From Xestospongia bergquistia (Eukaryota; Porifera; Demospongiae; Haplosclerida; Petrosiidae): 64,000 nt of DNA. Under the pieces are notes generated by a model, which made no database searches, had not been told where the DNA came from, and saw nothing but the letters and a program-made list of their open reading frames with translations. Location of the stretch: contig OZ014412.1 in assembly GCA_963965975.1 (NCBI GenBank), forward strand, positions 4,528,501 through 4,592,500, in the 5' to 3' direction. Below, one piece after another: positions 4,601 to 50,680 of this stretch; positions within the stretch are counted from its first letter, which is position 1, and each line of letters opens with the position of its first letter. Both the position numbers and the translations under genes were made by a program.

Positions 4601-7600
4601 AATATGAGACCATGGCAACTCCATTGGGATCATCAGTTGTATAAAGCACTTGAACACCAATATCAACTTGGTCTGGAAGCTCTTAATGAACACTTACCAG
4701 AAATCAAAGTAGAACTGACCTACAGGTAAATAATATAGATACTATTAAATGTATATACCTTGACTTTATACTAGATATCAACAGTTGCAATTTCGTCCTA
4801 ATTTGGAGGAATTAAGGGCCAAGTATTATCGAGATATAAAGAAGTTTATTTGTATTCCATTACACTTTAGAGGAGTTGGAGAAGCCACCTCGCCAGCTAA
4901 CACCATCTTCCCTCGACTGATAGATAGAAATGCTGCCTCCTTCTCCACTGTCTATAGAAAAGTATGCATTTATGCTTCATCATTTACAATGTTCATGTAA
5001 CAATCCAACTATCATTTATATCACTACATATATACATGTATGCTTCATTCATCCTTCTACTTTATTGTTCGTTCATTCGTCCTTAGGCTGAAGCTCTTTT
5101 CTTTCGGCTCAATCAAGCTATTATTCAATTTAAAGAGTGGGTGGTCCTCGGGTCACATGACCTTGATGCTCTAGTTGATAAGAGCTGTAAGTCAGTAACA
5201 GACTGGGAAAGAAACTTCAGAGCTCTCAAGATAAGAGGCAGAGATGCTGAAAAACTACCAAAGTAAGACATTTATATGGAGTTATATGACATATATAATA
5301 TATATGATAATACTACGTAATGAACATGTATATTATCTGATTATTTTAGCACTATAAAAGTGGACTGTATTACTGTTAATACACTACCTGTCAAGACAGT
5401 TATTGATGATCATATTCAACAATTGTATGATGCTCTTATGAACTCTTTACGACGCTCTATCTCTGTCAATGTTCAAGGTATTGATGGGTTTCTCAATGAG
5501 GCCTTTGAGTCTCTCTCGGTGAAACCACAAACTGTGGAGGAAATTGGACGTGTTAATGCATTACATCATCAGCTGTCAAAACAAAAACTTGAAGTAAATA
5601 ACAATGTTTGTATATTAATGTACTCTCTCTCTCTCTTTCTCTCTCTCAGATTTTTCCACTCTTTGCTGAAGCAGAGAAGAAGAATCGTTTATTGCGATCA
5701 GTTGCTGGGGGTGGTGTGGAACAGTTAGGAGAGTTAATGTCATGTTGGGACAAATTTGAACAAATGATGGAAAGTCATCAAAAAATGATACAAGAACAAG
5801 TAAATCTACTCTTTCTCTCTCTTTGTGCCCCTTTAATTCTATTTGTTTATTATGTTAATTTATTATCTATTCTTTTGCCTTGTTAGGTCAATGTGATGAA
5901 GTCCAATTTAGAATCTCGTGTCAGTGCTTTCAGACAGGAACTAGACAAGTTCTCTGCACGTTGGCATCAGTTAAAACCCAAGGTCATTACTATCTATTGT
6001 ACTTCGTATACAATTATATATTATAGTTAATATATTATACATATACAGGATGAAGATATATTGGAAGGTGATAGAGAGACTGGAAACATAGCATTATTAT
6101 CACTCAAAGAAAGAAGAGCTGAGTTTGATGAGCTAATGAAAAATGCCAACAGCTTAAAGTATGTACATTATATTATACATATAGTCATACTTATATCTCC
6201 CTCACTTCTTTCCTCCCTTTCTCAGAGAGGATGCTGAACATTTCCAGATGTCACAGCCAGAGTTTCCACTTATTGAAGAACTCGAACAGGACATATTACA
6301 ATATGAACAAACATGGTCTCTATATGAGCAATATTCTACTACACTGAGTGATATGGCTAGTCAAGATTGGATCTCTTTTAGGTAAAAAAAATAATATAAT
6401 TATATATGATTATATAGTTAATTATTAGGAGTCGTTCTCATCAGTTTGAGGATTTTCTTATGGGATGGGCTGAGACACTTCGTACTACGTCTCCTTCAGG
6501 TCTCACTGTTAAAATGCAAAATGAGATTGAGAAATACCAGGTAAAATGGACAAGTGTTTTCTACAATGGATGTATACTTGTACATAATGGATGCATATTT
6601 CTGCAGAATGGGTGTTAATGGATCCTCTCTTTATATTCATTTAGAACCTAGTACCTCTATTAAAATATGTCCGAGGGGAAGTCTTCTCTACTGATCATTG
6701 GCATGAACTATTTCGTATGTTGGGCATGCCAAGAGGGACTACACTAGACAAGCTAACATTTGCTGATATCATACAAAATAGTTCCTCTATCCTCTCGTCA
6801 TCTGTTGCTCTTAAAGAACTATACAGTCGAGCTCAAGGGGAAGTGTCAATACGAGAGGCTTTGAAGGAACTAGAACTATGGGGGGCTTCAACTGAGTTCT
6901 CTCTCACTGACTATGAGGACTCACAGGGCAAAAAATTAATGATTATTAAAGAGTGGAAAGAAATTGTCAATCAAGTGAGTGTTATTGATCTTCACATCAT
7001 TTTGTATCAGCTTGGCATCACTTTGCATTATTTCTGTACCATAAACTGTGTCACCCTTCTATCATTACTGCATCACATTCGTATCATCTTTGCATTAAAA
7101 ATTATCAATAGTCATTTAGTACAAAGTGGAAATTGATTGGGAATGAAAGTTTGTTATGATATGAGGTAATTGATTAAGAGTCGTTCCCCTGTACTTAGGT
7201 TGGTGATAATCAATGTCTATTACAAAGTCTGAAAGACTCACCATACTTCAAAGGATTTGAAGACAAAGCTACACTGTGGGAGACTCGTCTCTCTCAACTT
7301 GACTCTGCCCTACAAGGACTGAACCAAGTCCAAAGAAAATGGGTCTATTTGGAACCCATATTTGGTCAAGGGGCTTTACCAAGAGAGGCAGGACGTTTCC
7401 AACGTGTAGACCATGAATACAGGTAAAACTACGTGTTTTTTTAACAAAGTGATAATTTATATTGTTTGCTTTAAATAGGAGTATAATCAATAGTATTACT
7501 GGTGATAAGAGGGTACTTACCCTCGTCAACCAACAGGGTCTACAGTCAACATTGGATACATTGGTAGACCAACTGAACAGATGTCAGAAAGCTCTGAATG

Positions 7601-8495
7601 AATTTCTAGAGGTTTGTAATTACAGAAAATAATAGCCACTACCTTCTACTGATATAATATATTAATGGATACTGTGAAATATTTATCAATATCTGAGAGA
7701 TGGTTGCAGGAATTCTTACTTTGTTATGTAACTTTTGGCATTGCCATTCCTGCTTTATATCATACTTGTATTACATGTATAAATGTAACTATAGTCAATA
7801 CTTACATTATATACACAATATAGTTGGTATATAACTTAAAATAATAGGAAGATTTTAAATTGATACAAATCAGAAGAACTAATGAAGAGTCTATGAATAT
7901 TTAAAAGAACTGGTTTTGTTATTAGGAAAAACGATCAGCATTTCCAAGGTTCTATTTTATTGGAGATGAAGACCTCTTAGAGATTCTTGGTCAAGCTACT
8001 CAACCTCAAGTTATCCAGTCACATTTAAAGAAATTATTTGCTGGTATACACAGCGTTGTGTTCAGTGAAGATGGACACCAAATAATAGCCATGAAGAGTT
8101 TAGAAGGAGAAGTGGTCCCACTTACTAATGCTGTCACTGTCACTACAGATGTAGAGGTACACCCTGTAATATAGAATGATCAATATATCTCAACAATGAA
8201 GACACATATACAATGTCAAAGATATCTAGTGTCACTACTTGTATTTTAAATACTACTATAAATAGCATTCCCCTTAAGAAAGGACAATTGTATTTGACAT
8301 AATGATGTCCAGTAGATGTAGCAGAGAATTGTGTGTTAGTATTATAAGCATATCTTCTTTATTAGGTGTGGTTACAACAACTTTCTGATGAAATGAAGAC
8401 CACACTACAATTTTTATTGAATGATTGTATCCGTAATGGACAGACAGGAGGATCCGGAATTAATCCTTATAATTATCCTTCACAAGTGAGTGTTG

Positions 8496-8533
<38 letters not shown>

Positions 8534-11500
8534 TGCTATAATAATATTCTTTTTTATGATAGATTTTATGTTTGACTGAAGCCATTTTATTCACTGAACG
8601 TTGTGAAGAGGCTCTAGTTACTGGGAGATTAAATGAACTACTTATTGAACTAGAGTCACAACTTGATACTTATACTAACACAGAAATACAGGTACATTAG
8701 CTAGAGGAGAAATGACATTAATATCTCTCTCTCTCTCACTCAAATAGTCTAGTGAGTTAAGTCCAGCTGCTGTTATGGAGCTAAAAATCAAGGCTCTAGT
8801 ATTAGACACTGTACATAATATTGAAATAGTTCGTCAGTTACAAGAGATGAATATTAACAGTGTGACATCATGGCATTGGCAGAAGCAACTAAGATTTTAC
8901 TTGAGAACTGGTGAGTTTTGTTGGATGGATGGATTGATAGTTGGATGGATGGATGCATGAATGTATGGATAGATGGATAGTCTAAACAACTGAACATTAA
9001 TGGGTAGAAGTTTAGTGAATAAATGAACCTTGTGAGGTTATGTATTTCAACTATATAATGATTCTAAGGTATATTCCTACCTTTTAAATTTTTATGTTGA
9101 CTTTGTAATCAACTAATCCGCTCATATTAGAGCAGGATATCTCATACATTATTTGTAATTCTAATTCCACACTCACTATCTTCAGATCAGAGCTTAAAAT
9201 GTGGTTGACACGTCTTTCTTGCAAGTTTATTCTTTTTTAAGTCACATGACAGTCACTTTACTTGTAAATAAAGGTCACGTCTATGTAGATCAATGATGTG
9301 GGGGCTAAGATAAATAGTCTAATGTTTAGTTAATATTTAATAAAAATAAATGTACTAAATTATTACTGATACATCACAAACTTTATAACAAACTATTACA
9401 TTATCTCAATATATTACTACTCTATTATTGTACATATCACAAACATAACAAAATCCATCTCTGTCAAATGTTATTCCACTTGGAAGATTAAAATGACCCA
9501 CACTTTTACCTTGTCCTCCAAAAGCACGTATCAACTGACCATCAGTAGTAAAGATAGAAACACGATGATTACCATGATCTTTAAGTTGCAAAATAGACTC
9601 TGTGATATACACTAGATTATCATCTATTACAATTCCTATTGGATATTTCAGTTTTCCTGTACCAAACTGAGACAAAACCTGTCCCTCAGGAGAAAATACT
9701 TGGACTCGATGATTATTATTATCAGTCACATACAGTAACCCTCGTCTGTCAATAGCAATACCAAATGGATGATTAACTTGTCCCTTAGCTGATCCCTTGG
9801 TACCAAATGTGTGGGAGAAAGTTAGATCAGGATTTAAGACTTGTATACGATGGTTATTATAATCTGCAATATATATAAGTCCAGTTATTGGAGAAATAGT
9901 GATACCACAAGGAACGTTAAATTCCAGTGGTTTACTACCTTGTTTACCGACTGATTTAATACACTCCCCATCCATAGATATCTCCTGGATCTTGTGATTA
10001 TCAGCAACAAGAATGAAGTTGTCAGCAGTAATGGCTACACCACGAGGTTGAATGAACTTGACATTTCCTCCACTCTTTTGACCAAAAGACTTAATTTTCT
10101 TACTATTTCTATCTAGTACAGTGACACAATTACCCTCCCACTCACTTACTATAATATGTCCGTCATTAGTCACAGCAACTCCCCAGGGTTTGTTAAGTTC
10201 AGGTATAGTACGTACTGGAGTGATGTTATCAAGGAAGGAACTAAAAGGAATCACTAGTGACGTACTGTGAACTTGGACATCATTAACTTTGACATAAACT
10301 TGATGACGACCATGTGTTAGAGGATTACATTGTATTGTATACACTCCAGGATGTGTGGCAGTAGTGACTGTAGTTGTGATGGGTGTAGTTGTACCAACTG
10401 GTATTACACTACAACTGAGTGATGATAGAGGAACAGTAAGAAGACTGGAATCAGAAAATTGGATAGATAGTGGAAATGATACTGTCTTCTTTATAGTTGT
10501 AATGTGTTGACGATCAATCTTTTTGACTTTACAATGTTGTAGATGTGAAAGACATGTAATATCTCCAATATGATGTAATGTATCAACAATCTTGCTGTCT
10601 TTGTTAAAGTGAAGATCAGCTTTCTCTCTAACTTCAAACTCTTCAATGTTAACCTGTTCAGTCACATGAGTCATACGATCCATCATTTGTTTTGTAGATG
10701 ATACCACTTCTTGAGGACTGCCTATCTCAAGACTCTGTTTCACAAATTTGTGGCAATCCTTAAGTTGACTCAAACTCCTTTCAGCTGATCTTTTCTGCTC
10801 TGATATCACCTGTAGTTTACTGTCAGTGACTGTGTCCACCTTTCTAGTCAGCTGTCTCTCAGATTGACGAAGGACATCAATCATTTCTTCCACCATGACA
10901 TGTATCTCCTCTTTGACAACTTCTCCTTGCTCTCTGGTCTCATTCTCTCTTTCTGTGAGAGCAGTAAGTTCATCAGTAACAGCAGTGACCTTGTCACTAA
11001 CTGACTTCAGACTTGTTTCCAATTTTTTACAATCTTTAAGATAGCAGTCAGAGACTAAGTCATAATCATGATCTCTATGAATACGTATGGTACAGTCATG
11101 ACAAATGAGATTTTTACATGTTCTACAAAGGATCTCCAAAGGCTTATTATGAGTATGACATATCGTCTCCTGCTTCTCAGGAACCAATTGAGATGCAGAT
11201 TTTACTACTTCATCAAGACCTCTTATATTATGATCAGCAATGGCTACAAACTTCTTGTGAACATCAATACATTCTTGACAGAGAAACTTGGCACATTCTT
11301 TACAGTAACCTGTGGCATTAGTTGTAGTACAGTTATCACAGGCTGCCTCATGATGTCCTGATGCTTTTGTCATTAGGTCGTAAACATCTATGAGGTTGTT
11401 AATATGGAAAGCTGAAAGATAACCAGCTGCTCCTACTGGTTCAGGTAAATGTATACGATGACGACAAGTAGGACAAGAAATGTAGTGTTTATTTTCTTGA

Positions 11501-14500
11501 ATATTCAGTGATAGACCCTCCAAACATTGTTGACAAAAAGAATGGAGACATGGTAAGGTCTTAGGGTTAGTATAGATGTCAAGACATATAGCACAGGTGA
11601 GCTGTTCCTCTAGTTTCATGAGAGCTGTAGAGGAGGAGGTTCTAGGTACTGCTTTCTCTGCCATAATTTTAACAAAGCATTTAACAAGGAAACATTGCAA
11701 CACGCCCTCAGGAAGAAGCCATAAATTTGCATTTATATGGATTCCTTCGCCTATACTGATAATAGATATTGTTATTAATTTTTGAAATTCCAAGTAATAA
11801 CCTCTTTTGTAACCATATAAGGATATAGAGTCACATTATGGGTAGACGTTTTGCTTGCTCTCTAAGCAAAGGGCCTGGTCTTGTGGTGACTAGTACTATA
11901 TGCTATGAAAACAATTTGTAGTAAACTAATGGAGTAGGAAATTATTCAATTACATTTTATCTTGTTATTGGAGTGTAATAATTTTGACAGAGTCTTCGAA
12001 TCTCAAATTATTATCATTAGAACATTTAATTTGTGGACTTGTCTGATCTTCAAACTCTACCTTATGTCAATGACTAAATGGATACATTGAACAGGACACA
12101 CACAAAACAGAAATCAACCATTATATAATAATATATAGTTCTTACAAGTTTATTCTCTTTTAGTCACATGACAGTCACCTAACTTGTAGATAAAGATCAT
12201 GTGATGTACTTGTATCTATGTAGATTGATGATGTAGAGGCTAACACAATTAGTCTATTGTTAGTCAATATTTTATAAAAATAAATTTACTAAAATGTTAT
12301 TGATACATTGCAAACTTTATAAAAGTATATGAAAACTATTATAATTATCTCAATATTCTACTAGTCTATTATTGTACATATCACAAACATAACAACATCC
12401 ATCTCTGTCAAATGTTATTCCATTTGGAAGATTAAACTGACCCACACTGCTACCATATGCTCCAAAAGCACGTACAAACTGACCATCAGAAGTGAAGATA
12501 GAAACACAATGATTGCCTTCTTGATCTAGTGTAACAGACTCTGTAATATACACTAGATTGTTATCATCTACTGCAATTCCTATTGGATATCTTTGTTGTC
12601 CAGTATAAAAATGAAACAAAACTTGTCCCTCAGGAGTAAATATCTGAACACGATGATTCAAAAAGTCAGTCACATATAATAACCCTCGTCTGTCAATAGC
12701 AACATGTGCTGAGTAATTGAACTGTCCCACAGCTAATCCTTTGGTACCAAATGTGTAAGAGAAAGTTAGATCAGGATTTAAGACTTGTATACGATGGTTA
12801 TTACGATCTGCAATATAAACATGTCCAGTTATAGGAGAAATGGCAATACCACAAGGGCAATCAAATTCCAATGGTCCACTACCTTGTTTACCAACTGATT
12901 CAATACTTTTCCCTTCCATAGATATCTTCTGGATCTTGTGTTCATCAGCAACAAGAATGAAGTTGTCTGGAGTAATAGCTACACCACGAGGATGAAAGAA
13001 TTTGACATTTCTAAATCCATTTCTAAGACCAAAAGACTTCCCCTTTTTGCCATCTTTATCTAGTACCGTAACACAATTACCCTCATTCTCACTTACTACA
13101 ATATGCCTGTCATTTACAGCAACTCCCCAGGGTCTGTTAAGTTCAGGTATAATACGTATTGGAGTGATGTTATCAAGGTAGAGACTAAAAGGGATCACTA
13201 CTGAGGTACTGTCAAATGAGACGTTGTTAACTTGGACATTAACTTGATGACAACCATTAGTTACAGGACTACAATATACTGTATATACTCCAGGATGTGT
13301 GGTGGTAGTGACTGTAGCTGTGATGGGTGTAGTTGTACCAACTGGTACTACACTACAACTGAGTGATGATAGAGGAACAGTAAGAAGACTGGAATCAGAA
13401 AATTGGATAGATAATGGAAATGATACTGTCTTCTTTATAGTTGTAACATGTTGACGATCAATCTTCTTGACTTTACACTGTTGTAGAACAGTAGGTGAGA
13501 AGAACACAATATCTCCAATATGATGTAATGTATCAACAATGTTGCTGTCTCTCTTAAAGTGGAGATTAACTTTCTCTCTAGGATCGAACTGTTCAATGTT
13601 AACCTGTTCAGTCACATGACTCATACGCTCCATCATTTGTTTTGTAGATGATACCACTTCTTGAGAACTTCCTATTTGAAGACTCAGTTCCACAAACTCC
13701 TGACAATCTTTTAATTGACTTAGTTTGTTTTCAGCTGATTTCTTCTGTTCTGATAACACCTGTAGTTTACTACCAGTAACTGTGTCTACCTCTCTAGTCA
13801 GCTGTCTCTCAGACTGACGAAGGACATCAATCATTTCTTCCACCATAACATATATCTCCTCCTTGATGACTTCATCTTGCTCTCTGATCTCATTCTCACT
13901 GTCTGTGAGAGCAGTTAGGACATCAGTAATAGCATCAACCTTTTCTTTAATGTACTTAAGACTTGTTTCCAATTTTTGACCACATTTTGGATAGCAGTCA
14001 GAGACTAAGTCATAATCATGATCTCTATGAATGCGTACAATACAGTCATGACAAATGAGTTCTTCACATGTTCCACAAAAGATCTCTAAAGACTTGTTAT
14101 GTTCAGAACACTTTATCTCCTGCTTCACTGGGAGCAATTTAGAGGCAGAGGTTACTACCTCATCAATGCTTGCCATCTTATGATCACCAAGATGATCAAC
14201 ATCAATGCATTTTTGACAAAGAAACTTGGCACATTCTTTACAGTAACCTTTGGCATTAGTTGTAGTACAGTTATCACAGGTTACCTGTTGATGCCCTGAC
14301 ACTTTTATCATTAAATTTCGGACCTCTTGAAGATTGTTAATATGAAAAGCTACAGGAAAGTCAGCTGCTCCTGTTGGCTGAGGTAACTGGGTACGATGAC
14401 GACAAGTGGGACAAGTAATGAAGTAGTTACCTCCTTCAGGATCTAGTGGTAAACCCTCCAGACATTGTTGACAGAATGAATGATGACATGGTAAGGTCTT

Positions 14501-17500
14501 AGGATTGGTATAAAGGTCAAGACATATAGCACAGGTGAGCTGTTCCTCTAGTTTCTTGAGAGCCATTGAAGAAGTGATACTACATCCTGTTTTTTCCACC
14601 ATGGAAGCTGTGTGTATTGCTTTAAAACAGCCCTGATGACCTTTAATTTGAATAGGATGATGGTGTTACTATACTATCATAACAGGAGAAAAAATGGATA
14701 TTTGTTGGTAATGAATAACTTGTTAGTTTTGGTCTTGCAGACAGAAGTGTGGGAGATTATGTACATTAATTTATATAGAGATTGTCTAATAGAAAATGCC
14801 CACTCACTTCATGAATACTATTATAAGAACCACAAAAATGAGAGGAATCCAACTCTATAGTAAGCAGTATAGCCAAAAATCAATCAAAAAAATCAAATCA
14901 GAGTATAGTCTTACTTCAGTTTATTATAGAAAATATTGTTTAAAATTACCACTGACACTAACAGACAGTGAACAGCATACAGTCATATAACTATTAAATA
15001 ATATTTGTTATATAACACAACATTCATTTTATTGATTTAATACACTGCTAGTCTATTGTTATAGCAATCACAAACATACAAATATCCTTCTTTATCAAAT
15101 GTTATTCCAAATGGAGCATTAAACTGACCAACACTGCTACCATATCTTCCAATAGATCGTACAAACTGACCATCACTAGTGAAGATAGAAATACCATGAT
15201 TACCTGAGTCTTCAAAACATAAAATAGCTTCTGTAACATATATTAAATTGTTATCATCTATCGTAATGCCTACTGGCTGGCCATGATGTTGTCCTTTGAT
15301 ACTAAATTGGGTTCTATAATGTCCCTCGGGTGTGAATGTCTGGATACGATGATTATCAGTATCAGTTACATACACTAACCCTTGTCTGTCGATAGAAACA
15401 TCTGCTGGAGAATTAAACTGTCCCTCAGCTGATCCTTTCAAACCGAATGTATGAGAGAAAGTCAAATCTGAATTTAAAACTTGTATACGATGGTTACTTT
15501 CATCTGCAATATAAATCTGTCCAGTTATAAGAGAAATTGCGATACCACGAGGAACTGCAAATTCCAGTGGTCCACTACCTTGTTTACCAACTGATGTAAT
15601 GCATTTCCCATCCATAGATATTTTCTGGATCTTGTGGTTGTCGGCAACAAGAATGAAGTTGTCTGGAGTAATGGCTATACCACGAGGATAAAAGAACTTT
15701 ACATTTTTAATTCCTAGTTTCTTAAGACCAAAAGACTTCACTTTCTTTCCATCTCTGTCTAACATTGTGACACAATGACCATCTCTCTCACTTACTATAA
15801 TATGGCCATCATCAGTCACACCAACTCCATAGGGTCTGTTAAGTTCAGATATAGTATGTACTGGAGTGATGTTATTAAGGTAAGGATTAAAAGGGATCAC
15901 TAGTGAGGTACTACCAACTTGGACATCATTAACTTGAATATTAACTTGATGATGAGCATGAGTTACAGGACTACAATGTATTGTATATACTCCAGGATGT
16001 GTGGTGGTACTGACTGTAGCTGTGATGGGTGTAGCTGTATCAACTGGTACTACACTACAACTGAGTGATGATAGAGGAACAGTAAGAAGACTGGAATCAG
16101 AAAATTGGATAGATAATGGAAACGATACTGTTTCTTTATTTACAGTGATGTGTTGATGATCTATCTTTTTGACTTCACAGTGTTGTAGAACAGTAGGAGA
16201 TACACATATGATATCTCCAATATGATGCAATGAATCAAATATGCTGTTGCTTTTTTTAAAGTGAAGATTAGCTTTTTCTCTTGACTTTAAATCTTTCATG
16301 TTAACTTGTTCAGCTACATGACTTATACACTCTGTCATTAATTTTGTTGATATCACCACTTGTTGTGGACTGCCTATTTCAAGACTTTGTTCCACAAATT
16401 CCTGGCAGTCCTTTAGTTGACTCAATCTTGTTTCAGCTGATTTCTTCTGATCTGATAACACCTGTAGTTTACTACCAGTGACTGTGTCTACCTCTCTAGT
16501 CAGTTGTCTCTCAGATTGATGAAGGACATCAATCATTTCTTCCACCATGACATGTATCTCCTCTTTGACAACTTCTCCTTGTTCTCTGATCTCATTTTCT
16601 ATGTCTTTGAGAGCAGTTAGGACATCAGTAATAGCATCAACCTTTTCTTTAATGTACTTAAGACTTGTTTCCAATTTTTGACCACATTTGGGATAGCAGT
16701 CAGAGACTAAGTCATAATCATGATCTCTATGAATGCGTACAATACAGTCATGACATATGAGTTCTTCACACGTTCCACAAAAGATCTCTAAAGACTTGTT
16801 GTGTTCAGAACACTTTATCTCCTGCTTCACTGGGAGCAATTTAGAGGGAGAGGTTACTACCTCATCAATGCTTGCCATCTTATGATCACCAACATGATCG
16901 ACATCAATACATTTTTGACAAAGAAACTTGGTACATTCATTACAGTAACCTGTGGCATTAGTTGTAGTACAGTTATCACAGGTTACCTGTTGATGCCCTG
17001 ACACTTTTATCATTAAATTTCGGACCTCTTGAAGATTGTTAATATGAAAAGCTACAGGAAAGTCAGCTGCTCCTGTTGGCTGAGGTAACTGGGTACAATG
17101 ACGACAAGTGGGACAAGAGATGAAGTAGTTATCTCCTTGAGGATCTAGTGGTAAACCCTCCAGACATTGTTGACAGAAATAATGGAGACATGGTAAGGTC
17201 TTAGGATTGGTATAGAGGTCAAGACATATAGCACAAGTGAGCTGTTCCTCTAGTTTCTTGAGAGCCATTGAAGAAGCCATACTACATCCAGTTTTTTCCA
17301 CCATGGAAGCTGTTTGTATTGCTTTAAAACAGCCCTGATGACCTTTAATTTGAATATGATGATGGTGTTACTATACTATTGTAACAGGAGGAAAAAAATG
17401 GATATTTGTTGGTAATGAATAACTTGTTAGTTTTGGTCTTGCAGACACAAGTGTGGGAGATTATGTACATTAATTTATATAGAGATTGTCTAAAAGAATT

Positions 17501-20500
17501 CTTAGAAAATGCCCACTCACTTCATGAATACTATCATAAGAATCACAGGAATCCAACTCTATAGTAAGCAAAAATCAATCAAAAAATCAATCAGAGTATA
17601 TTATGATGTCTTTCATAGTAACAATAATGTTAATGATTTCTTTATACACAATCCAATACAATATTTTTAAAAATAAAATACTCTAATATAATTTATCTTT
17701 AAATTTTTATTAAGATAATCCAAAATAAATTGAGATATTCACTCCTTTTTATGACCATATGTACTAAATTCACTAAGACATGTCAATGTGTTGATTTGTA
17801 TTATATACAATTAGTATTGTAGAAAAAATGAAAGTGTAGCAAGATCACTTAATTGTTGTAATTATTTTTTAGTTTGTTACAGTTTGATGTCGTAGGTGTC
17901 TTATTGTCAACTTAATGTGTAATTTGTGGAGTCAGCATTAAATATCAAGTAAATTTAAATTTTTATAATAAAAAAAATTAAATTTAAATTTAAATTTTTA
18001 TAACACAAAACAGCATTACATAGTATATAGTATACATAGTATATTAACATAACAATATCTTATAAAAGTACACACGTTATCACATTATTTCAATATACTA
18101 CTAGTCTGTTATTATAAAAATCACAAACATACAAATATCCTTCTCTATCAAATGCTATTCCATATGGACTGTTAAACTGATCCACTTCACAACCAGGTTC
18201 CCCAAAAGAGCGTACAAACTGCCCTTCAGTAGTGAAGACAGAGACACGATTATTACCGACATGTCCAGGATACAAAGTGGACTCTGTGATGTACATTAGA
18301 TCATTGTTATCTGTTATAATACCTACTGGACATATGAGTCGTCCAGGATTGGACCCAAGAGCTCCAAATTGATACAAAAACTGCCCCTCAGAAGTGTACA
18401 ACTGGATACGATGATTACCAATATTGGTTATATAGAGTACCCCCTGCTTGTCAATGGTAACATCACCTGGCCTATCAAACTTTCCCTTGGTTGTTCCTTT
18501 GGTACCAAACATGAACAAAAACGTTAGATCAGGATTTAAGACTTGTATGCGACAGTTATTACTATCAACGACGTAAATATTGTCAGTTGTAAGAGAAACA
18601 GCAATGCCACGAGGAACGTCAAATTCCAGTGGTCCACTTCCTTGTCTACCCACTGATGAAATGTATGCCCCATCTATAGATATCTTCTGAATCTTGTGAT
18701 TATCAGTAACAAGAATGAAATTGTCTGGTGTAATGGCTACACCACGAGGTTGAGAAAACTTGACTCCTATTATTTTCTGACCAAAAGACTTCACTTTCTT
18801 TCCATCGCTATCCAATACTGTAACACAGTTGCTGTTATTCTCACTAACTATAATATGTCCATCATCAGTTACAGCAACTCCATAAGGTCTGTCAAGTTCT
18901 GGTATAATACATACTGGAATGATGTTATCACGATATGGATTAAAAGGGATCACTAGTGAGGTACTATCAACTTGGACATCATTGACTTGGACATTAACTC
19001 GAATGGTATGTGCTACAGGACTACAATGTATTGTATACACTCCAGGTTGGATGGTGGTAGTGACTATAGCTGTGATAGGTGTAGTTGTATCAACTGGTAC
19101 TACACTACAACTGAGTGATGATAGAGGAACAGTAAGAAGACTGGAATCAGAAAATTGGATAGATAATGGAAATGTTACATTGTTGTTATTTATATCAATG
19201 CGACTATCATCAATATTACTAACTTTACATTGTTGTAAAACAGTAGGTGAGAGACATAGGACATCTCCAATATAATGTACTATATTGACAATGTTCCTGT
19301 CTTGCTTAAAGTAAAGGTCAGCTTTCTCTTTAGGTTGATGTTTTTCGCTGTCAATCTGTTTAGTCACATGACTCATGTATTTCATCATGTGTTTTGTAGA
19401 TGTTATCACCTGTTGAGGATTACATATCTCAAGACTCTGTTCTACAAATTCCTGGCATTCTTTTAGTTGACTCAATTTTTTCTCAGATGACTTTTTCTGA
19501 TCTGATAAAACTTCTAGTTTTTTGCCAATAATTATGTCCACGTCATTAGTCAGTTCTCTCTCAGACTGCTGAAGAATAGCAATCATTTCTTCTACCATGG
19601 TGTGTATCTCCTCTTTGATGACTTCTCCTTGCTCTTTGATCTCATTCTCTCTGTCTGTGAAAATAGTTAGGACATCAGTAACAGCAGCGACCTTGTCACT
19701 AACTGATTTCAGAATTGCTTCCAATTTTTGGCAATGTTTGGGATAGCAGCCAGAGACTAAGTCGTGCTCGTGATCTCTATGAACTCGTATTGTACAGTGG
19801 TAACAAATGAGCTCTTCACATGTCTCACAAAAGATCTCTAAAGTTTCATTATGACTGGAACACTTCATCATAGGAAGCAGTTGAGATGCAGACGTTACTA
19901 CTTCATCAAGACCTCTTATATTATGATCAGCAATGGCTACAAACTTTTTGTGAACATTAATACATTCTTGACAGAGAAACTTGGCACATTCTTTACAGTA
20001 ACCTGTGGCATTAGTTGTAGTACAGTTATCACAAGTTACCTCTTGATGTTCTGACACTTTTGTCATTAGATTGTAGATCTCCTTGAGGTTGTTAATATGG
20101 AAAGCTCCGGGAAAGTCTGAGACTCCTGTTGGTTGAGGTAATAGGGTAGAATGATGACAAGTTGGACAAGAGATGTAGTTTTCTCCTTGAGGATCTCGTG
20201 GTAGACCCTCCAGACATTGTTGACAGAAAGAATGGAAGCATGGTAATATCTTAGGGTTGGTATAGAGTTGATAACATATAGCACAGGTGAGCTGTTCCTC
20301 TAGTTTCTTGAGAGTTGAGGAGGAAGTGCTTGGTACTGCCTTCTCTTCCATTAGTGGATGAAAAAGATTTTAAAAGTAGAGGACAGGTTATAATAAAAAC
20401 CACAAGAACAAATGTGATCCACCCCTTGTTATTTTAAACTGATGATAACTAACAATATAAGATCTACTGATCACATGATAACTACATGATCACTACTGTA

Positions 20501-21127
20501 AGTATTGTTATTGTAATATGATATATGTGATGCTCTGGGAAAGGGTGAATCAATGGATGGATGAGTGTAGATATAAATTTTCACATAGCTCAATCAATTG
20601 ACAAGCTCTTCCTTTATAGATATATGTCAAGTACATATGGTGGATTCACAGTTCAACTATACATATGAGTATCAAGGCAATTCACCGAAATTAGTCCATA
20701 CTCCATTAACTGACAAGTGTTATTTAACTCTAACTCAAGCAATGTTAATGGGACTAGGAGGTAATCCCTATGGTCCTGCTGGAACAGGGAAGACGGAGTC
20801 TGTTAAAGCACTGGGAGGATTAATGGGTCGTCAAGTATTAGTGTTCAATTGTGATGAGGTTAGTATTTAATGATGTAACTCATGAATATTAATAAGAAAA
20901 TATTTGGTTCTCTAGGGTATTGATGTTAAGTCGATGGGTCGTATTTTCATTGGTCTAGTTAAATGTGGAGCCTGGGGTTGTTTTGATGAGTTTAATCGTC
21001 TTGAGGAAGCTGTTTTATCAGCTGTATCTACTCAAATACAATCAATACAAGCTGCTATACGTAGCAGAGCTCCAACATGTGACCTGTTAGAGAGAAAGGT
21101 TGGCAAGGAATAGTTGAGATAGTAAAT

Positions 21128-21188
<61 letters not shown>

Positions 21189-24100
21189 TACTCTCTTTCT
21201 CTCTCTCTCTCTTTCTCATAGATCAATTTAGATCCTAATTCTGGTATCTTTATCACATTAAATCCAGCTGGTAAAGGTTATGGGGGTCGTCAAAAGCTCC
21301 CTGATAACTTGAAACAACTGTTCCGTCCAGTTGCCATGTCACGTCCTGATAATGAACTAATTGCAGAGGTCATCCTCTTTGCTGAAGGATTCAAAGATGC
21401 AAAGGCTTTAGGAAGAAAATTGGTAACAATTTTTACTCTATCTAGGTAAGATCAATTGAGACAACAGAATTATTTTAGCTATTCTTTTGTTAGTGAGCTT
21501 CTCTCTACACAACAACATTATGATTGGGGTTTACGAGCATTGAAAACTGTACTGAAAGGATCTGGTAATATGTTACAATATGAGAAAATAGCTAATAATG
21601 GTCAAGTAAAAGGTACTTATTTTAGAAGATAACTCTTCTCTTTATTAGACACATTCTTGTATCTTCTTTATTTATTTATTCAGTTTCTCTATCAAAAGAG
21701 ACAGAAATTGTTGTTCAAGCATTAAGACTTAATACTTTGTCCAAACTTACTTTTGCTGATAGTAAACGATTTGATTCTCTCATTCGTGATGTATTTCCTG
21801 GTGTCCAATTTAAAGGAATAGAACAACAACAATTAATAGAAGCTTTAAAACAATCAGCACAAGAAATGGATCTTGAAATAATTAATTCACAGGTTTGACC
21901 ATACATTCATTCATTCATCCATTCACTCATCCATCCATTCGTCCATCCATTTATCAATCCATCCATTTATCCATCCATCCATCAATTCATTGATATATTT
22001 ATTATTAATTCATTTCTAGATTAACAAAGCTTTAGAGCTACATGAACAGTTAAGACAAAGAATGGGTGTGGTCATTGTTGGCCCAAGTGGCTCAGGAAAG
22101 AGTGCAGTATGGAAAATCCTTAAATCTGCTCTCAATAAACTTGGACAAACAGTTAAGAACTACACCATGAATCCTAAAGCCATGCCTAGAACTCAGGTAC
22201 ATAACTTACCCACATCAGATACATCCATTTTATGCATCTATTTCTCATTGGACAGCTGCTTGGACATATTGATATTGATACTAGAGAATGGACAGATGGG
22301 GTACTGACCTCTAGTGCTCGTCAAGTCGTACGTGAATCCACTGATATTCATTCTTGGGTCATATGTGATGGAGATATTGACCCAGAATGGATAGAGTCTT
22401 TAAATTCTGTACTTGATGATAACAGATTACTTACAATGCCATCAGGCGAACGTATTCAGTTTGGACCTAATGTTAACTTCTTGTTTGAGACTCATGACTT
22501 GTCATGTGCTTCTCCGGCTACTATCTCAAGAATGGGCATGATATTTTTAAGGTACATTGACATATAGTACATGATACTATATATAGACAGCTATTGACAT
22601 ATGGTAGATGATACTACATATAGACAACTATTGACATATAGTACATGATACTATATATAGACAACCATGACATATGGTAGATGATACTATATATAGACAT
22701 AACCAGACATTGCCTGACAAGAACTATGAATCATTCACTCAATCTATACTTAAACTCAGCCATCCATTTTACAAATTGTCCATCCATTTTATAAACTATG
22801 CATCTATTCTTGAAATCATGCATCCATTTATCCAAGCTATCCATCCATTTGCAAGCATGTATCTATTCATTGTTATAGTGATGAAGATACTGACATAAAA
22901 GCAATTGTCAAGGCTTGGTTTAAACGTCATTCTACATCCTCATCAAATCTCCTTGAAGGATGGATAGAGGACTATTTCTATCAGGCTTTGGATTGGGTAC
23001 TTAAAAAGAACGAAAACATAATTGAGACGACTCTCGTAGGACTCATTATGAATGGTCTCAGTCATTTAGTTGGTGTCCAGTCGAAAGGAGAATTTAGTTG
23101 TTCACTTGTTAGAGGATTAGGAGGAAATTTGTCATCAGAGACAAGATCAGTATTTGCTAAAGAAGTATACTATTGTGTTCATTTACTGACCCATTCGTTC
23201 ATTTATTGTAGGTATTTGCATGGACTCACGAAACATTACCAGACCCTCGTCATCCACTGGATACTTACTGTGATCCTGCAACTGGAAGACTTGCCGCATA
23301 TCAACTTCAAGTCCCTGACCATCTTTCCTTGTCAGATTTCTCAAGAGGATCTCCTCCAGTTGTACTAACAGCTGATACTCAACGAAATGCAGCTATGATA
23401 ATGCCTTGGCTGCAACACAATTCCCGGCAACCGTTCTTATTGGTTGGACCAGAAGGGTGTGGCAAAGAGTAAGGACACTATCAGTACTAATATTGGAGTT
23501 ACAAATCCTCTTAATATTGTAGGTTATTATTGAACTATTGTTTTAATAGTCTGTCCTCTACACAAGTAGCTACTGTTCATTGTAGTGCTCAAACATCAGC
23601 ACTACATGTACAGCAGAAATTAAGTCAGGTACTGTAATATCTGTATACAATTAATCCTAATATTACTCAATATTTCATTGAAGGAAATTATTACTTATAA
23701 TCTAAAAATTAATTATTGTATTATTATTAACACTGCATAATCAACTATTTATAACAAATTTATAATTTATAATTTAATAAATTTAATAAATATAAATTCC
23801 TACAGGAAATGTTTGTGTTATTGATAATTTTTTTATTGTAGGTTTGTATGGCTATCTCTACTACTAATGGGCGTGTCTATCGTCCTAGAGACTGCGAGAG
23901 ACTTATTCTTTATCTGAAAGATCTCAATCTTCCCAAACCTGACAAATGGGGTACATCACAACTCATTGCCTTTTTACAACAAGTTAGTATTTATCTCTCT
24001 TGAGTACAACTCATTACAATGTGTATTATTATTACTATTATATATTATTAAATGAGATATTTTAAATTTAAGGGTATCAATTTTTTTTCTATCTATAATG

Positions 24101-27100
24101 TAATTGGTATATATGTCTATCATTTTCATCTGTTTATTTTATGTATCCATAGTTACCCTTATTTGTTTATTTCAACTTCCATCAATTAATCTATTTTCAT
24201 TTACAGGTTCTTACTTATAATGGTTTCTACGTTGCTAATCTTGAGTGGGTGGGACTAGAAGGTATTCAAATCATAGCCTCCATCAACCCAGGGGGTAGTC
24301 TCGGTCGTCATAATCTCTCCACTCGTCTCACAGCAATTGTTAGACTCTGTTGTATAGATTATCCTGATAGCGATGGACTTGATGCTGTGTACAGTGCATA
24401 CTTGAAAACTATATTACAATCTACTGTACCAAACCATCCTTACTGGGGAGCTACAGCTAAAATACATGCTCTAGCTAGTTCAATGATATCTGTATATAAT
24501 CAGGTACAACTAACTATACATGTACATATACTTATATAAATGTATATACATGTACAATATACATACAGTGCATGCATGTACTATTGATGTTCAACTAGAT
24601 ATTTACCGAATGTATCATCTAAAATTTTGATGGATTGCCTCTTTGCTATATAGGAAAATAGACTTAACTCTTTGCGCGTAAAGGGTTAAATTAAATAGTA
24701 AAATTCTATTCACATCTAAGATACTTTTGTCATAATACTATTATATTATACAAATATTACTATCAGTGACCTTTGTAGGTTAGAAAGAAGTTTACTGTTG
24801 ATGACCACTCCCACTATATTTTTACTCCTCGTGATTTGACTCGTTGGGTTTGTGGACTTTTAAGATATCCTCTCTCTGAGGATACATCCTCTAGTCTCGG
24901 AGTATTACATGCTTGGGCTTATGAAGGATGTCGTTTGTTTAGGGACAGATTAGTTGGTTAGTTAATATTAATAATTAATTTAAAATAACTATTATTGATC
25001 AGGTGAAAGACCACAGTCTGAATTTGATAGTATTCTTGGAAGTGTGCTGAGATCTGATTGGTCAACTGATGCTCCACCTCAATCAACTTACTTTGTATCA
25101 TGGGGTACTACCCACGTCTCTGAAGGAGTACATCAGTTTGGGAAACCATTGGGAAAACTATCGACTGCAGACCTTGCTGATATTATTTACAAAGCCACTA
25201 TCACATATGGTACTTAATAACTTAAACCACACCCATTCTAACAACACAATTGACACATCTATTGTTCATATAGGTCGTGAACAATGCGAACTTAATATTT
25301 TCATATTTCGAGAGGTTTTGGACTACATTGCTCACATTGATAGGGTATTGACTTCACCTGGTGGTTCCCTACTCCTCGCTGGAAGGAGTGGTTCAGGAAG
25401 AAGAACAGCAGTGAAACTGGTGGCTCATATGCACCATATGGACATTGTCACACCCCACATCTCACGTACATACTCTGTTAAACATTTTAGAAATGATCTC
25501 AAACAAGTAAGTGACTTGTACTGAATATAAGCCACCATGTCATTTATAAGCACACCACTTTACAAAAACCCTTAATCTTTTAGGTCATGCAAAGAACTGG
25601 AATTGAAGGAGAACCTCTACTTCTGCTGTTAGAAGATCATCAGTTACTTGATTCTTCATTTCTTGAGATGATCAACAGTCTATTGAGTGCAGGAGAAATC
25701 CCAGGCCTCTACACTCAAGAAGAATTGGAGCCTCTCCTTGCTCCATTGAAAGATTTAGCATCTGAGGAAGGTTATCGAGGGACTCTGTTATCATATTTCT
25801 CATCTCGTGTCCGTAATCATCTCCATGTTGTTCTAATTATGGACTCCTCATCCAATACATTTGTCAGTCATTGTGAAGCTAATCCTGCACTCTATACCAG
25901 CTGCACATTTCAGAGCATGGAGAACTGGTCACGTCAGACCATGCTCAGTCTCCCTGGAGCTGTCCTTAATGGTGTTACAGGATCAAAGATTATGGTTGGT
26001 AAAGACGAGACTGAAAACAAGTTGAGTCGTTTCTTTCTAGATATTCATGAATCTTGTCTTGTCAGTGGTGCAACACCACAGCAATTTATCAACTTTTTGA
26101 AGACTTACAAAACAGTTTTTGCTCAAAAGAAAGAAGGGCTGTTGAAACAACAGAACAGGCTACAGGCTGGCGTCACAAAACTCAACGAAGCTACTTCACT
26201 AGTAGATGAACTGAAGGCAAAAGCTGCTGTTCAAAGGAATCTCTTAGCAGAGAAACAGGCTGAAGCTGATGAGGCTTTACAACAGATTACAGCAAGTATG
26301 CAGTCAGCCTCAGAACAAAAAAATGAAATGGAGATTATTAGACAGAAGCAAGCTGAAGAAAGAGTGAAACTAGAGAAGAGAAAGAAAGCAATTGATATTG
26401 AGTTATCAGAAATAGAACCTCTAATTGCTGAAGCTAAAAAGGCTGTTGGAAACATCAAGACTGCAACGCTTGCTGAGATCCGTGCCCTCAACGTTCCTCC
26501 GACAGTCATCAAAGATATATTAGAGGGTGTACTTTGTATTATGGGTATCTATGACACAACATTCAGTAGCATGAGGACCTTTTTAGGACGACGAGAAGTG
26601 AAGGAAGATCTACAAAACTTTGATGCTAGAAAGATCACTCCTGAGATAAGAGAAAATGTTCAACAACTACTTGAGAAAAATAGCAAGTCATTTGAACCGA
26701 GTGCAGCAAAACGAGCTAGCGCTGCAGCAGCCCCTCTTGCTGCTTGGGTAAAAGCCAATGTACGATACTCCTATGTACTAGAAAAGATTGGTCCACTAGA
26801 AAAAGAACAGGCAGCTTTACAAAGGAACTTGGAACAATCAGAGGCCAAGTTGTTAAAACTGAGCAAGGTTTTGGAGGGTCTTGACAAGAAAGTAGCTGAT
26901 ATGAGACTTAAATTTGAGCAAAGAACAACAGAGGCTGCTAAACTCAAACTTGAAGTAGAAAGAGAAGAGGAGACGATAGTGGCAGCTGAAAATCTTGTTG
27001 GTAAGTTGAAAGGAGAGCATCATCGATGGACTCAACAAGTTGATGAACTTAGTCATGAAGTTGAACAACTTCCAACTTGTTCTCTACTGGCTGCAGCATT

Positions 27101-29870
27101 TCTCACTTATCTGTCTAAAGCTCCTGAGGATGAAAGGCAAAGTAAAATGACTCAATGGACAGAAATGGTTGGTTTGAATGGATTTGAATTGAGAAGCTTT
27201 CTGTCATCAGAGAAAGAGCAGTTGCTTTGGAAAGGAGAGGGATTACCCTCGGATGATCTCAGTATCGAGAATGCTCTGATTATTCTCCAAAGTCAGGTTT
27301 GTTCTTTCCTTATTGATCCCTCCCAGCGTGCTACTTTGTGGTTGAAAAATCACCTCAAAGACTCTCGTCTTGAAGTTATAAACCAACAAGATAGTAACTT
27401 TACAACAAGTCTTGAGTTAGCTGTACGGTTTGGTAAGACACTCATCATACAAGAAGTGGATGGTGTGGAACCAATTCTTTTTCCTCTCCTTCGAAAAGAC
27501 CTCGTCAGCCAAGGTCCTCGATATGTTGTCCAGATTGGTGACAAAGTGATTGATTATAATGAGAACTTTGCCTTATACCTCACAACTCGAAATCCTTGCC
27601 CAGAAATTCCTCCCTATGCTGCATCTGTTATATCTGAGATTAATTTCACAACAACTAGGGCTGGGCTAACATCACAACTCTTGGCAGCCACAATTCAGCA
27701 TGAAAAACCTGAACTAGAAGAGAGAAAGTCAGCCCTTTTGAAGTCAGAAGAAGACCTCAAAGTCCAACTAGCAGGTTTAGAAGAGTCTCTCTTACAAGAA
27801 TTAGCATCTGCTGAAGGTAATATTTTAGAGAACAAATCTCTGCTTGATTCTTTAAACGAGACAAAGGCTAAAAGTATGACAATAAGTCAATCTCTCCAGG
27901 AGTCAGTTGAACTGCAATGCTCCCTCAACCAGGAACGTGATGCTTACCTGCCACTTGCTCTGTATGGAAGTAATCTCTTCTTTATCATTAGCAAACTCAA
28001 TAAATTAAATGGGATGTATCAGTTCAGTCTGGCCTCATTCCTGAGACTGTTTCGAAGAGCTTTAGAAAACAAAGAAGGTAGTGGAAATACAGAATTAAGA
28101 ATACAAACATTGGTGTCTACATTCCAATCTCTTGTATATCGGTCCATATGTCGCTCTCTCTTCAAAGCCGACTGCCTAATGTTTGCTCTTCATCTGGTGA
28201 ATGGTGTTCGACCTGAGTTATTTCAGGAAAAAGAATGGGAAGCATTCACAGGACAACTAATTGACAATCTATTTCGACGACAGGAGTCAGTGAAACAGAT
28301 GAAAGATAGCACACCCTCATGGATCAATCCTGAACAATCTGTTCCATTGTCAGCTCTCAAATCTACCTTCCCTTCTCTTTACAACAATCTAGAACTGTCC
28401 AACACAAATCTTTGGGCTCAATTTAGCCGAAGCTCTCAATGTGAAAAAGAGTTTCCTCTCTCTGTTGCTAAAAAGATAACACCCTTTCAGCAACTTTTGG
28501 TTATACAGGCACTGCAACCCGATCGCTTACAAAGTGCAATGGAGCAGTTTGCAAACTTTGCTCTCAGTTTACGAGAGTTGAACCCATCCACATTAAATTT
28601 GAAAAAGCTCTACTCTTCAGAAACTCTTCCTACTGAACCAATACTTCTTGTCATTTCTCCTGGAGCAGATCCATCCCAAGAGCTCCAGGAATTGGCACAT
28701 GAGGTAGTTGGACAAGAGAACTACTATCAGGTAGCTATGGGTCAAGGACAAGCTGACATTGCTCTTCAATTGCTTCGTGACTGTGCCCACAATGGACAGT
28801 GGCTGTGCTTAAAAAATCTCCACCTTGTTATACCATGGTTACCAATCCTGGAGAAAGAATTAAACACACTCGAGCCTCACTCTAACTTTCGACTCTGGCT
28901 CACTACAGAGGCACATCCTCGATTTCCACCCATTCTTCTCCAGAGTAGTCTCAAGATAACATATGAAGCCCCACCAGGTATCAAAAGGAACCTCCAACGT
29001 ACCTATGACTCTTGGTCTCCTGAATATATTGAAGATGATAAGAATGTTTCTCGAGTTCAAGCTCTATTTGTGCTAGCTTGGTTCCATGCTGTTGTACAAG
29101 AGAGACGTGTTTACATTCCTCAGGGATGGTCCAAATTTTATGAGTTCTCATTGGCAGATATGAGAGCAGCTGCTAACCTAATTGATCGATTATCTTCACG
29201 TGGAGGTAACAATGATAGAATGGACAGATGGATGGATGAACAGAGAGAAAGAGAGAAATGGATTGATGGATTATGTCATAATGATGTCATTTTTGTTTAC
29301 AGGGAAAATTGAGTGGAAGTTTATGCATGGTTTAATGGAGAATGCTATCTATGGTGGACGAGTGGACAACACTTTTGATATGAGAGTTCTCACTTCTTAC
29401 TTACATCAGTACTTTAATAATAGTGTTATTACTGGTCAAACTGGTTATACTCATCAGTCAAGCAGGAAACCTGGAACAGGTCTACCTATAGGAAATATAC
29501 CAGTGTCAGCTAAATTACAGGTACACTGATAATCTTTACTACTTCTTACTCTCTCTCTATTTCTCTCTCTCTCTCTCTTTCTCAGGACTTCCTTGGTGTA
29601 ATAGGTAATCTCCCTGAATCAGATAAGCCAGAATATTTTGGTCTTCCAGCTAACATTGACAGATCACGACAGAGAACAGTTAGTAGTCAGGTAAGTATAT
29701 ATAGAAGAGAGAGAGAGATAAATATTATATTATTTATCATTTTAGGTAATATCACAGCTGAGAATAATTCAAAGAGGAGGTAATGGTACTGATAAATTTG
29801 ATAGAGAAGCATGGAATGAACAACTGACACCACTACTTAACTTATGGAAGAAATTAAATCAGGTAGATAC

Positions 29871-29909
<39 letters not shown>

Positions 29910-30989: not shown

Positions 30990-31134
30990 TAACAGAAGAC
31001 AACTATAATAACCATACTTTATTAACTTAATTATAACTAGTGACACAAACTTTTAAATGACCTCTAAAAATTATTATTAAATATATCAAAAACAGAGATG
31101 TAAAGCTACAGGTTAAATAAACCATAATACTATC

Positions 31135-33384: not shown

Positions 33385-33594
33385 AATAGGATGTAGTGGA
33401 ATATAAAGAAATTAAAAGAATTCAAAGGATTGCTTGTTGCAGAGCTGTGTGATTCACAAAGAGTTAAAAATGTTGTTACACCCCCCCCCCCCCCTTATAT
33501 ATATATGCAGGAATGAACGAATTGTTCCAGGCTTGCCTACTAATTAATTCATGATGCACTTTGCCTAATTATTATTCATTGTTTATTATGTAAA
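33385..33594. other. 5' flank of TRIM copy 5 with poly-C run
   Basis: This holds the presumed promoter, a run of about 14 C at 33481-33494 and a TTATATATATATG stretch. It closely matches the 5' flank of copy 7 at 39640-39830, including GAATTGTTCCAGGCTTGCC. No gene seen. Confidence 0.6.
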
Positions 33595-34000
33595 TACCAA
33601 TTTTAAAATGGTGGTACGTTATTTGAAAGTAGTTGTTTGACAGAAATTTCTCTCTCATTGAAATATCAATGAACAATAAGGACTATAAGATACATTAACA
33701 AAAAAAAATGCATTATACAGTAAATTCAAACTACTTGTTACAATGTAACACAAATGATGAACATAATATTGTACAATATAACACAACACTAAATCTTAGA
33801 CACTTAATAATAATTATACAGGATTGAAATAATTAATGCATGCATACTAAAATAATTTTTATTACAAAATACATTCACTAATGATGCTATGATTAACAAT
33901 GTCTTTAAAACAGTAACCACAAATTATCATTACCGTTTTCTAATTCTTGACAATGTTTGGGATAGCAGTCAGAGACAAAGTCATAATCATGATCTCTATG
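33595..34000 (-). pseudogene. Relic of a tenth TRIM-NHL gene
   Basis: Bases of about 33606-33930 match the 3' flank of copy 9 (47262-47575) almost throughout. At about 33945-34000 the sequence jumps to a short piece of B-box 2 to coiled-coil coding sequence (reverse strand, reading around HDYD and SDCYPKHCQ). The NHL, filamin and coiled-coil regions in between are missing. The relic then runs without a gap into dynein sequence at 34001. It is a TRIM gene with a large internal deletion, cut off at a duplication joint. Confidence 0.75.
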
Positions 34001-34535
34001 ATAAGACAAGAAACTGCCAGATATATTATACTACTGAAATCTTGGACAAATCTCTTGTGTAATCATTGTAACAGGTCTCTTAAAACAAGCATGGACTTGT
34101 TGAAGTTTTACTGTACACAGAAACAAGCAACACAAACCTTTTGCCTACTGGTACAGGTACAAGTACATGTATAAGTTATGATTTACCACATCAAGGTAAT
34201 AAGGTGTGGTCTTTGATTCACATCAAATAAAGGTTTAATATATTATTTATCATACAGATTGGTGGTCTACAATTAGAAGGCTATAGTTTTGAATGTAATT
34301 GTCTTAATGAAAGCAAACACAACTCACCCAGTGTCTCTACTCTCCCTCCCTGTACTATAGGGTGGGTAACAATGGACACACCCTCTCCATACCCAGAGAA
34401 TGAATGCATCTCTATTCCTATCTACTCTACTAGTAGTCGTGAGAAATTAGTCACTCAGTTATCAATTCCCTGTGGTACTAGTAATGTATCTGTCATTGTA
34501 CAGTCTGGTGCAGCTGTGTTCTTGAAAAGTTTTTA
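34001..34535 (+). pseudogene. DYNC2H1: Duplicated 3' end of DYNC2H1
   Basis: This is a second copy of the last dynein exons. It has the end of exon 43 (34001-34021, its donor damaged), exon 44 (about 34074-34155) and exon 45 (about 34259-34535), with introns kept. The last-exon copy still reads open to the same VFLKSF end, with a few replacements (ECNCLNES for EGGRLNES). The 3' flank to about 34706 is also duplicated. There is no upstream dynein sequence, so it cannot make a motor. It was probably carried along when the copy 5 TRIM unit was duplicated to give copy 6. Confidence 0.85.
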
Positions 34536-34706
34536 ATAACAGAAGACAACTATAATAACCATACTTTATTAACTTAATTATAACTAGTGACACAAACTTT
34601 GAAATGACCTAAAATTATTATTAAATATATCAAAACCACTAAAATTTATTAAATATATCAAAAACAGAGATGTAAAACTACAGGTTAAATAAACCATAGT
34701 ACTGTC

Positions 34707-43411: not shown

Positions 43412-43616
43412 ATACCCTGACTTTCTTTTAAATTAAGATACCATAATACCCAATATCATATTCTGTACATGTACACATTATGTATACACTATTGTGTAGT
43501 TGCTTAGCAAAAGTATTCCTGTCCCAAGAATATTTAAACAAAACGAATAGTGTTACCAAAACAAATGTAAACCAAAAATTAAGTCATATTAATTATTGTT
43601 ATTATTGTATAAACAA

Positions 43617-45881: not shown

Positions 45882-45986
45882 AAGAGGATATACTGAGATT
45901 ATAAAGAATACAAACAGGCAGTTTGTTGCATGGTTGTGTGATTCACCAAAAAGAGATAAGATAGGTTACACCACCCCCTTTTGTGA

Positions 45987-45996
45987 CCATATAAGG
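45987..45996 (-). promoter_or_regulatory. CCATATAAGG box upstream of TRIM copy 8
   Basis: Perfect CC(A/T)6GG 10-mer, 106 bp before the ATG, in the same context as at copy 6 (CACCCCCTTTTGTGA before it). Confidence 0.45.

Positions 45997-50607: not shown

Positions 50608-50680
<73 letters not shown>

Follow-up and report, generated by a model that had tools for sequence, protein, structure and literature searches.

DYNC2H1 lies within a large TRIM-NHL gene cluster, part of which is nested in one host intron, in the sponge Xestospongia bergquistia

The stretch of DNA analysed here, referred to as the window, is 64,000 bases of contig C2 of Xestospongia bergquistia (G000:C2:4528501-4592500), free of any N, in an assembly of 146.5 Mb and 21 contigs. 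It contains a gene for the ciliary dynein heavy chain DYNC2H1, and within one intron of this host gene lie four intronless genes of the TRIM-NHL family, designated T1 to T4, on the opposite strand. The host, the intron and the guests are placed as follows.

1623-30989, plus strand: host gene DYNC2H1, from its likely first methionine to the stop codon (30987-30989)
8911-20619, plus strand: host intron holding T1 to T4, 11,709 bp, GT-AG
30567-30648 and 30711-30989, plus strand: final two host exons, forming a joined open frame
9406-11835, minus strand: TRIM-NHL gene T1, stop-to-stop frame, 752 residues from the first methionine
12350-14665, minus strand: TRIM-NHL gene T2, stop-to-stop frame, 750 residues; hybrid, 5' part T3-like and 3' part T1-like
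15037-17367, minus strand: TRIM-NHL gene T3, stop-to-stop frame, 755 residues from the first methionine
18090-20369, minus strand: TRIM-NHL gene T4, stop-to-stop frame, 753 residues; groups with T9

The host is assigned to DYNC2H1 because cytoplasmic dynein 2 outscores the other dyneins: in a search of solved structures the frame at 25584-29309, the large 3' exon, reached 1601 bits against the human cytoplasmic dynein 2 heavy chain, and the next dynein 593. The frame at 1931-2749 matched DHC_N1 at 1.4e-6, just below the Pfam cut-off, and the methionine at 1623 is the likely start, judging from the open frame. Three loci on viral contigs gave weak P-loop matches. The first-pass annotation had taken the gene to be single-copy, and so it looks in this assembly, since the other places scored (37 of 88 candidates) are just 25-52% identical to it.

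Fourteen DYNC2H1 introns were placed within 6541-22255. The one that holds the guests has the donor GTGAGT at 8911 and an acceptor ending in TTTATAG, the last base of which is 20619, and the exons on either side fuse into one open frame. When 14 host exons, from 6645 to the cut-off at 22500, are joined over 13 of the placed introns, including this one, they are open throughout; the first placed intron precedes that stretch. In the best two of 26 loci listed, L001 (66% identical) and L002 (58%), both filed under names of bacterial metagenome-assembled genomes, the join site was uninterrupted when read by eye. The interval 8911-20619, previously proposed as a DYNC2H1 intron, is borne out as one at the DNA level. 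The other 13 introns measure 48-314 bp, with a median of 77 that the guest-bearing intron exceeds about 150-fold, and the TRIM block accounts for the excess.

All four guest frames lie wholly within this single intron. Pfam found a RING, two B-box stretches and C-terminal NHL repeats in each, and the C3HC4 RING zinc ligands are complete in all four when the alignment is read by eye, in agreement with the earlier description of four complete, antisense, intronless TRIM-NHL genes of about 750 residues. The top solved-structure matches of T1 were TRIM71, Thin, TRIM2 and TRIM3, with the NHL repeats matched too, and residues 73-371 of T1, where a coiled coil may lie, aligned with a TRIM28 chain in this search. 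Frames of about 750 residues with this RING, B-box and NHL content are not due to chance. For the six pairs among T1-T4, the ratio of nonsynonymous to synonymous substitution rates (dN/dS) lay at 0.26-0.59 when the RING/B-box/coil (RBCC) part was compared and at 0.33-0.59 for the NHL part, and constraint therefore acts on both parts. The encoded proteins would act as RBCC-NHL E3 ligases. Between the two parts lies a linker of 86 codons, which we take to be filamin-like and which gave no filamin match in Pfam. Positive selection was considered and rejected: with T7 left out, pooled dN/dS exceeded 1 in one of 30 windows of 25 codons, and in that window the pooled synonymous rate (dS) was just 0.07, which we read as a trace of conversion.

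The array does not end with the host gene. Downstream of it, at 31135-50031 and on the same strand as T1-T4, are five further copies, one of them broken, and between the first two of these lies a copy of the host 3' end.

31135-33411, minus strand: TRIM-NHL gene T5, flanked by the host stop and the copied host exons; one RING zinc-ligand cysteine replaced by tyrosine
33619-34001, minus strand: remnant at the duplication junction, a T9-flank-like piece and a TRIM B-box piece
34002-34706, plus strand: copy of the host 3' end, with exon copies at 34075-34156 and 34258-34536, an open frame with a stop, and splice sites retained
34707-36962, minus strand: TRIM-NHL gene T6, open frame
37395-39720, minus strand: TRIM-NHL copy T7, frame interrupted at two places
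43617-45965, minus strand: TRIM-NHL gene T8, open frame
47596-50031, minus strand: TRIM-NHL gene T9, open frame, domains found

All nine copies in the window share one orientation. Genome-wide, 69 matches to T5 merge into at least 60 genes, a lower bound obtained from 60 scored candidates out of 400 at first look. Fifty of the 60 scored members match almost the full length of T5 in a single row, and three of these have one internal stop codon; of the other ten, one is cut short and nine are in two pieces relative to T5. When genes are chained with gaps of up to 100 kb, C2:4434321-4718335 (284 kb) holds 25 of the 60, with 12 to the left of the host, the four intronic genes and nine on its right side, T7 being absent from the 25 scored. 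The first 20 genes of this chain are on the minus strand and the last five mostly on the plus strand. DYNC2H1 is therefore enclosed by a TRIM-NHL cluster, and T1-T4 are ordinary members of it, in the part that overlaps the host. A second cluster, at C2:2.58-2.72 Mb, holds 23 more scored genes, and the remaining 12 are in small groups. The tandem quartet recognized at first pass is present, but it does not stand alone, and that earlier picture was too small in that it lacked both the five downstream copies and the duplicated host 3' end. A quartet that arrived as an isolated insertion is rejected, given the cluster of 25 scored genes to which it belongs.

Several observations bear on the cluster as a whole. 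Plus-strand TRIM-NHL fragments lie to the right of the window (L044:598-1237 and L046:6334-6618). To the left, C2:4440475-4490031 contains near-identical units, with a difference of about 0.2% between the genes at 4445325 and 4480178; these represent either segmental duplication in the very recent past or a second haplotype that was not collapsed. In the frame lists of L066 and L067, TRIM genes have no clear host around them, two loci being too few for a general statement on nesting in the family.

The copied host 3' end is part of a larger duplicated unit, for 30490-33782, which includes the end of the host gene and T5, matches 34002-37321 at 83.6%. Both the original and the copied terminal exons are open, their phase and splice sites match, and 8 of 119 residues differ between them. 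Measured in blocks of 100 bp, identity starts at 84-92% for 300 bp, rises to 99-100% across 30790-30989 and falls to 92-95% in the 200 bp that follow, a profile that makes a conversion tract over most of the last host exon likely. At the junction, 33619-33930 is 92.8% identical to the 3' flank of T9, and abutting the host copy is a 65-bp piece of a TRIM B-box (33937-34001) that is 93.8% identical to T5 and T9 and up to 95.5% identical to a gene of the left cluster. We infer that this tandem duplication extended from the interior of a host exon into a TRIM gene that has since been lost for the most part. A genome search with the host 3' end gave three places (all three candidates scored), each of them in the window: the gene itself, the copy, and a 67-bp piece by T7. 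If a splice from 30508 to 34075 is used, it would produce a 3,566-bp intron containing all of T5, and the duplicated terminal exons are thus a possible intermediate of nesting by means of copied host exons. The 3' ends of the host and T5 are convergent, with stops 145 bp apart (30990-31135), and this convergent region has been copied with the TRIM units, near 34537-34706 (T6) and at 37325-37391, 67 bp (T7).

Recombination is also apparent among the guests themselves. Of the 376 informative sites in T2, 88% are T3-like in the part before alignment codon 294, against 35% in the part after it, and none of 2000 permutations gave as strong a contrast. The homology of T2 with T3 extends about 240 bp beyond the 5' end, and that of T2 with T1 about 190-210 bp beyond the 3' end. 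T2 is a T3/T1 hybrid, the product expected of unequal exchange between T1 and T3. The hybrid, together with the flanks shared among T1-T3, shows multiplication in place at the DNA level, and at least some of the copying that made the four guests thus took place within the intron. In addition, the one 25-codon window with a pooled dS of 0.07 falls in the linker, the other 29 windows having values of 0.21-0.82, and in 26 of the 30 pairs listed (36 tested) the longest identical run, of 60-118 bases, is at the start of the linker, in intronic and outside genes alike. These features point to gene conversion, including conversion between intronic and outside genes, and constraint at the nucleotide level is also possible.

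The relationships of the four guests suggest that they do not all descend from one arrival. T4 groups with T9, which lies outside the host and 27 kb from T4, with supports of 95/99 (nine genes, RBCC), 96/95 (eight genes, NHL) and 100/99 (eight genes, whole gene), T7 having been left out of the two eight-gene sets. With 21 genes (eight from the window, without T7, and 13 from elsewhere in the genome, out of at least 60) the supports are 91/88, 96/91 and 97/99 for RBCC, NHL and whole gene. A single T1-T4 clade is disfavoured in the small set by the approximately unbiased (AU) test (p = 0.034, 0.017 and 0.006). A T1-T3 clade is neither backed nor rejected: in the small set the two parts gave p = 0.11 and 0.15 and the whole-gene tree contains the clade, though unsupported, and with 21 genes p was 0.19-0.32. 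Because conversion is likely, we grade the entry of at least two lineages into the intron as no more than probable.

Taken together, these results are best explained if DYNC2H1 is enclosed in a large, recombining cluster of intronless TRIM-NHL genes, part of which lies within one host intron, and we consider this explanation as a whole to be quite likely. The guests would have minus-strand promoters of their own, and host transcription would run on through T1-T4, with the 11.7 kb spliced out. We propose that the array is tolerated because antisense guests offer the host transcript no polyadenylation or splice signals; a study of mammals and Drosophila describes opposite-strand nesting as favoured there (PMC8467205). 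We are less sure that the intronic block entered as at least two lineages, T4 on the one hand and the ancestor or ancestors of T1-T3 on the other, and that it came by way of a segmental duplication or an exchange with the adjoining array and not by one gene becoming four.

A number of results weigh against this explanation. In the linker, dN/dS among T1-T4 is 0.51-1.09. With 21 genes the AU test against a single T1-T4 clade weakens to p = 0.105 (RBCC), 0.042 (NHL) and 0.040 (whole gene); the T4+T9 grouping is absent from the linker alone, and gene conversion can mimic such a grouping. The top whole-genome match of T1, among many near-equal scores, lies in the other C2 cluster and is not an intron neighbour, and that of T3 is T2. 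No relic of a host exon was recognised in the five intron spacers: at the nucleotide level, matches were at most 61 bp, the best of them (E 6e-4) in a simple-repeat stretch of the host region, and none of 42 tblastx spacer rows was recognised as a relic, copied host exons scoring 8e-110 in comparison. Forty of these rows fell in the first spacer (the best ones listed on that simple repeat), with one each in spacers s3 and s4 and none in s1 or s2. In a genome-wide search of three of the five spacers, the outermost right spacer matched itself only; the left spacer (8979-9405) matched, besides itself, only the T2 3' spacer; and the T3-T4 spacer matched the T2 5' spacer and 13 dispersed stretches of about 50-100 bp. 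With no relic recognised, and with spacers that match almost only other intronic spacers, the sequence gives no arrival route.

It is possible, although we think it rather unlikely, that the intron received a single intronless TRIM retrocopy or transposed gene, which there became four, the outside array being separate. An intronless source is at hand, as the 50 members that match T5 in one uninterrupted stretch indicate, and insertion is the usual route of nesting given in the literature (PMC3933685). The 3' flank common to T1 and T2 and the 5' flank common to T2 and T3 have no other match of any length, and on the RBCC part of the 21 genes a T1-T4 clade is not rejected. However, the grouping of T4 with T9 is seen for RBCC, NHL and whole gene alike, if not in the short linker. 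The intronless state of the guests is family-wide and hence uninformative for this event, and the homology past the coding ends of T1/T2 and T2/T3 argues for DNA-level copying there.

Less probable still is a large tandem duplication of the host 3' half together with two TRIM lineages, after which the first copy of the host exons was lost. A small version of such an event is present at 30490-34002, where the junction can be read, all nine copies in the window share orientation, and the order is alike in the two blocks, with T4 and its relative T9 rightmost in each. This likeness of order rests on that single pair, though, no host-exon relic was recognised in the intron spacers, and the outer spacers have no matches outside the intron.

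The enclosing cluster may be taken one step further, to a host gene that is being progressively swallowed by the recombining array, with T5 conditionally nested through splicing into the copied terminal exons that conversion has preserved, the quartet a product of the same process, and host antisense RNA linking expression of a cilia gene to TRIM dosage. We regard this as a speculative and improbable extension; if it is true, duplications that start in the host and end in a TRIM gene copy host exons past guests.

An even more doubtful proposal is that the host intron RNA is a family-wide antisense source that silences TRIM messages. In each of T5-T9, 35-44% of the sequence is covered, in antisense, by perfect intron matches of at least 21 nt, whereas none of the nine copies has a 21-mer in common with the host region 20621-31000. 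Any antisense nested paralogue, however, would show such matches, and excised introns are normally degraded quickly. Silencing of T5-T9 in trans by the intron RNA is possible but not to be expected by default.

That the TRIM block belongs elsewhere and was misassembled here is very improbable: the family is repetitive and includes the nearly identical left-cluster pair, but the right edge spacer is unique, the left edge spacer matches only within the intron, and the neighbouring exons are in order and frame. The longest exact match of the block is 118 bp to the rest of the window and 142 bp to 25 loci (L041-L065), and in an assembly of 21 contigs matches this short make a misjoin through repeats unlikely.

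The TRIM array is followed in the window by a second repeated family, in two related stretches within 50544-62753. For one frame of these, 59079-59399 on the minus strand, Pfam gave a match to the SID-1 dsRNA channel family (PF13965, 2.7e-22), and further related stretches are present beyond the right end of the window (L044, L045, L048 and L049). The presence of a dsRNA-channel family next to an antisense-rich locus may be a coincidence. The plus-strand frames at 63541-63798 and at L066:7906-8589 we take to resemble the N-terminal zinc finger of hAT-type transposases; the first of these has no match in Pfam.

Routes of nesting are usually inferred long afterwards, with insertion the one usually given, and the acquisition of new exons is mentioned as another (PMC3933685). 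At this one locus a nest of four members lies beside copied host end exons that could nest a fifth guest, so that the new-exon route becomes directly testable through one splice junction, 30508 to 34075. The locus also presents a conserved ciliary gene within a recombining cluster, where host exons are exposed to duplication and conversion. Among the papers listed from the open-licence literature, judged by title and opening of the abstract, none dealt with sponge TRIM-NHL expansion or with genes nested in DYNC2H1, which does not imply absence in print.

Nested genes as such are common among animals: 12.4% of genes are nested in the glass sponge Aphrocallistes and 3358 are listed for Amphimedon queenslandica (PMC10282587), and the report on a ctenophore gives 2357 nested genes, with a figure showing four nested in one host (PMC8527503). 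The first-pass annotation regarded a tandem quartet of E3 ligase genes inside a single-copy ciliary gene as unusual, but a family cluster in one intron is already known from the insect TipE genes, whose host is conserved and single-copy and holds them in its last intron (PMC3240667). As here, several members of one family share a single intron of a host that is single-copy and widely conserved, and in that report expression of the guests correlates poorly with that of the host, the human orthologue of which is named C21orf59. The TipE genes as described there are on both strands and their arrangement is stable across insects. In contrast, the guests in DYNC2H1 are all antisense, closely related and marked by recombination, and their array continues outside the host. 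C21orf59 is presumably the cilia gene CFAP298.

Other systems share part of the arrangement. A GMC oxidoreductase cluster in an intron of flotillin-2 is likewise a large family cluster in one intron, although host and family differ and the passages cited make no mention of copied host exons (PMC3240667). The NF1 intron that holds OMG, EVI2A and EVI2B contains three coding genes, all antisense as here, but as described these are not four tandem copies of one family; KRTAP5 paralogues of one family are nested in MOB2, where the guests, unlike T1-T4, include several other genes and have more than one orientation (PMC4394429). At the protein level T1-T4 resemble the TRIM2/3/71-type RBCC-NHL ligases (subfamily C), which have a RING, two B-boxes and NHL repeats (PMC3503706), but here they belong to an expanded, largely intronless set of at least 60 scored genes in the genome. 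A nest of one family in an intron is thus a known arrangement, and what is new in this locus is the presence of copied terminal host exons around a guest, beside a nest of the same family.

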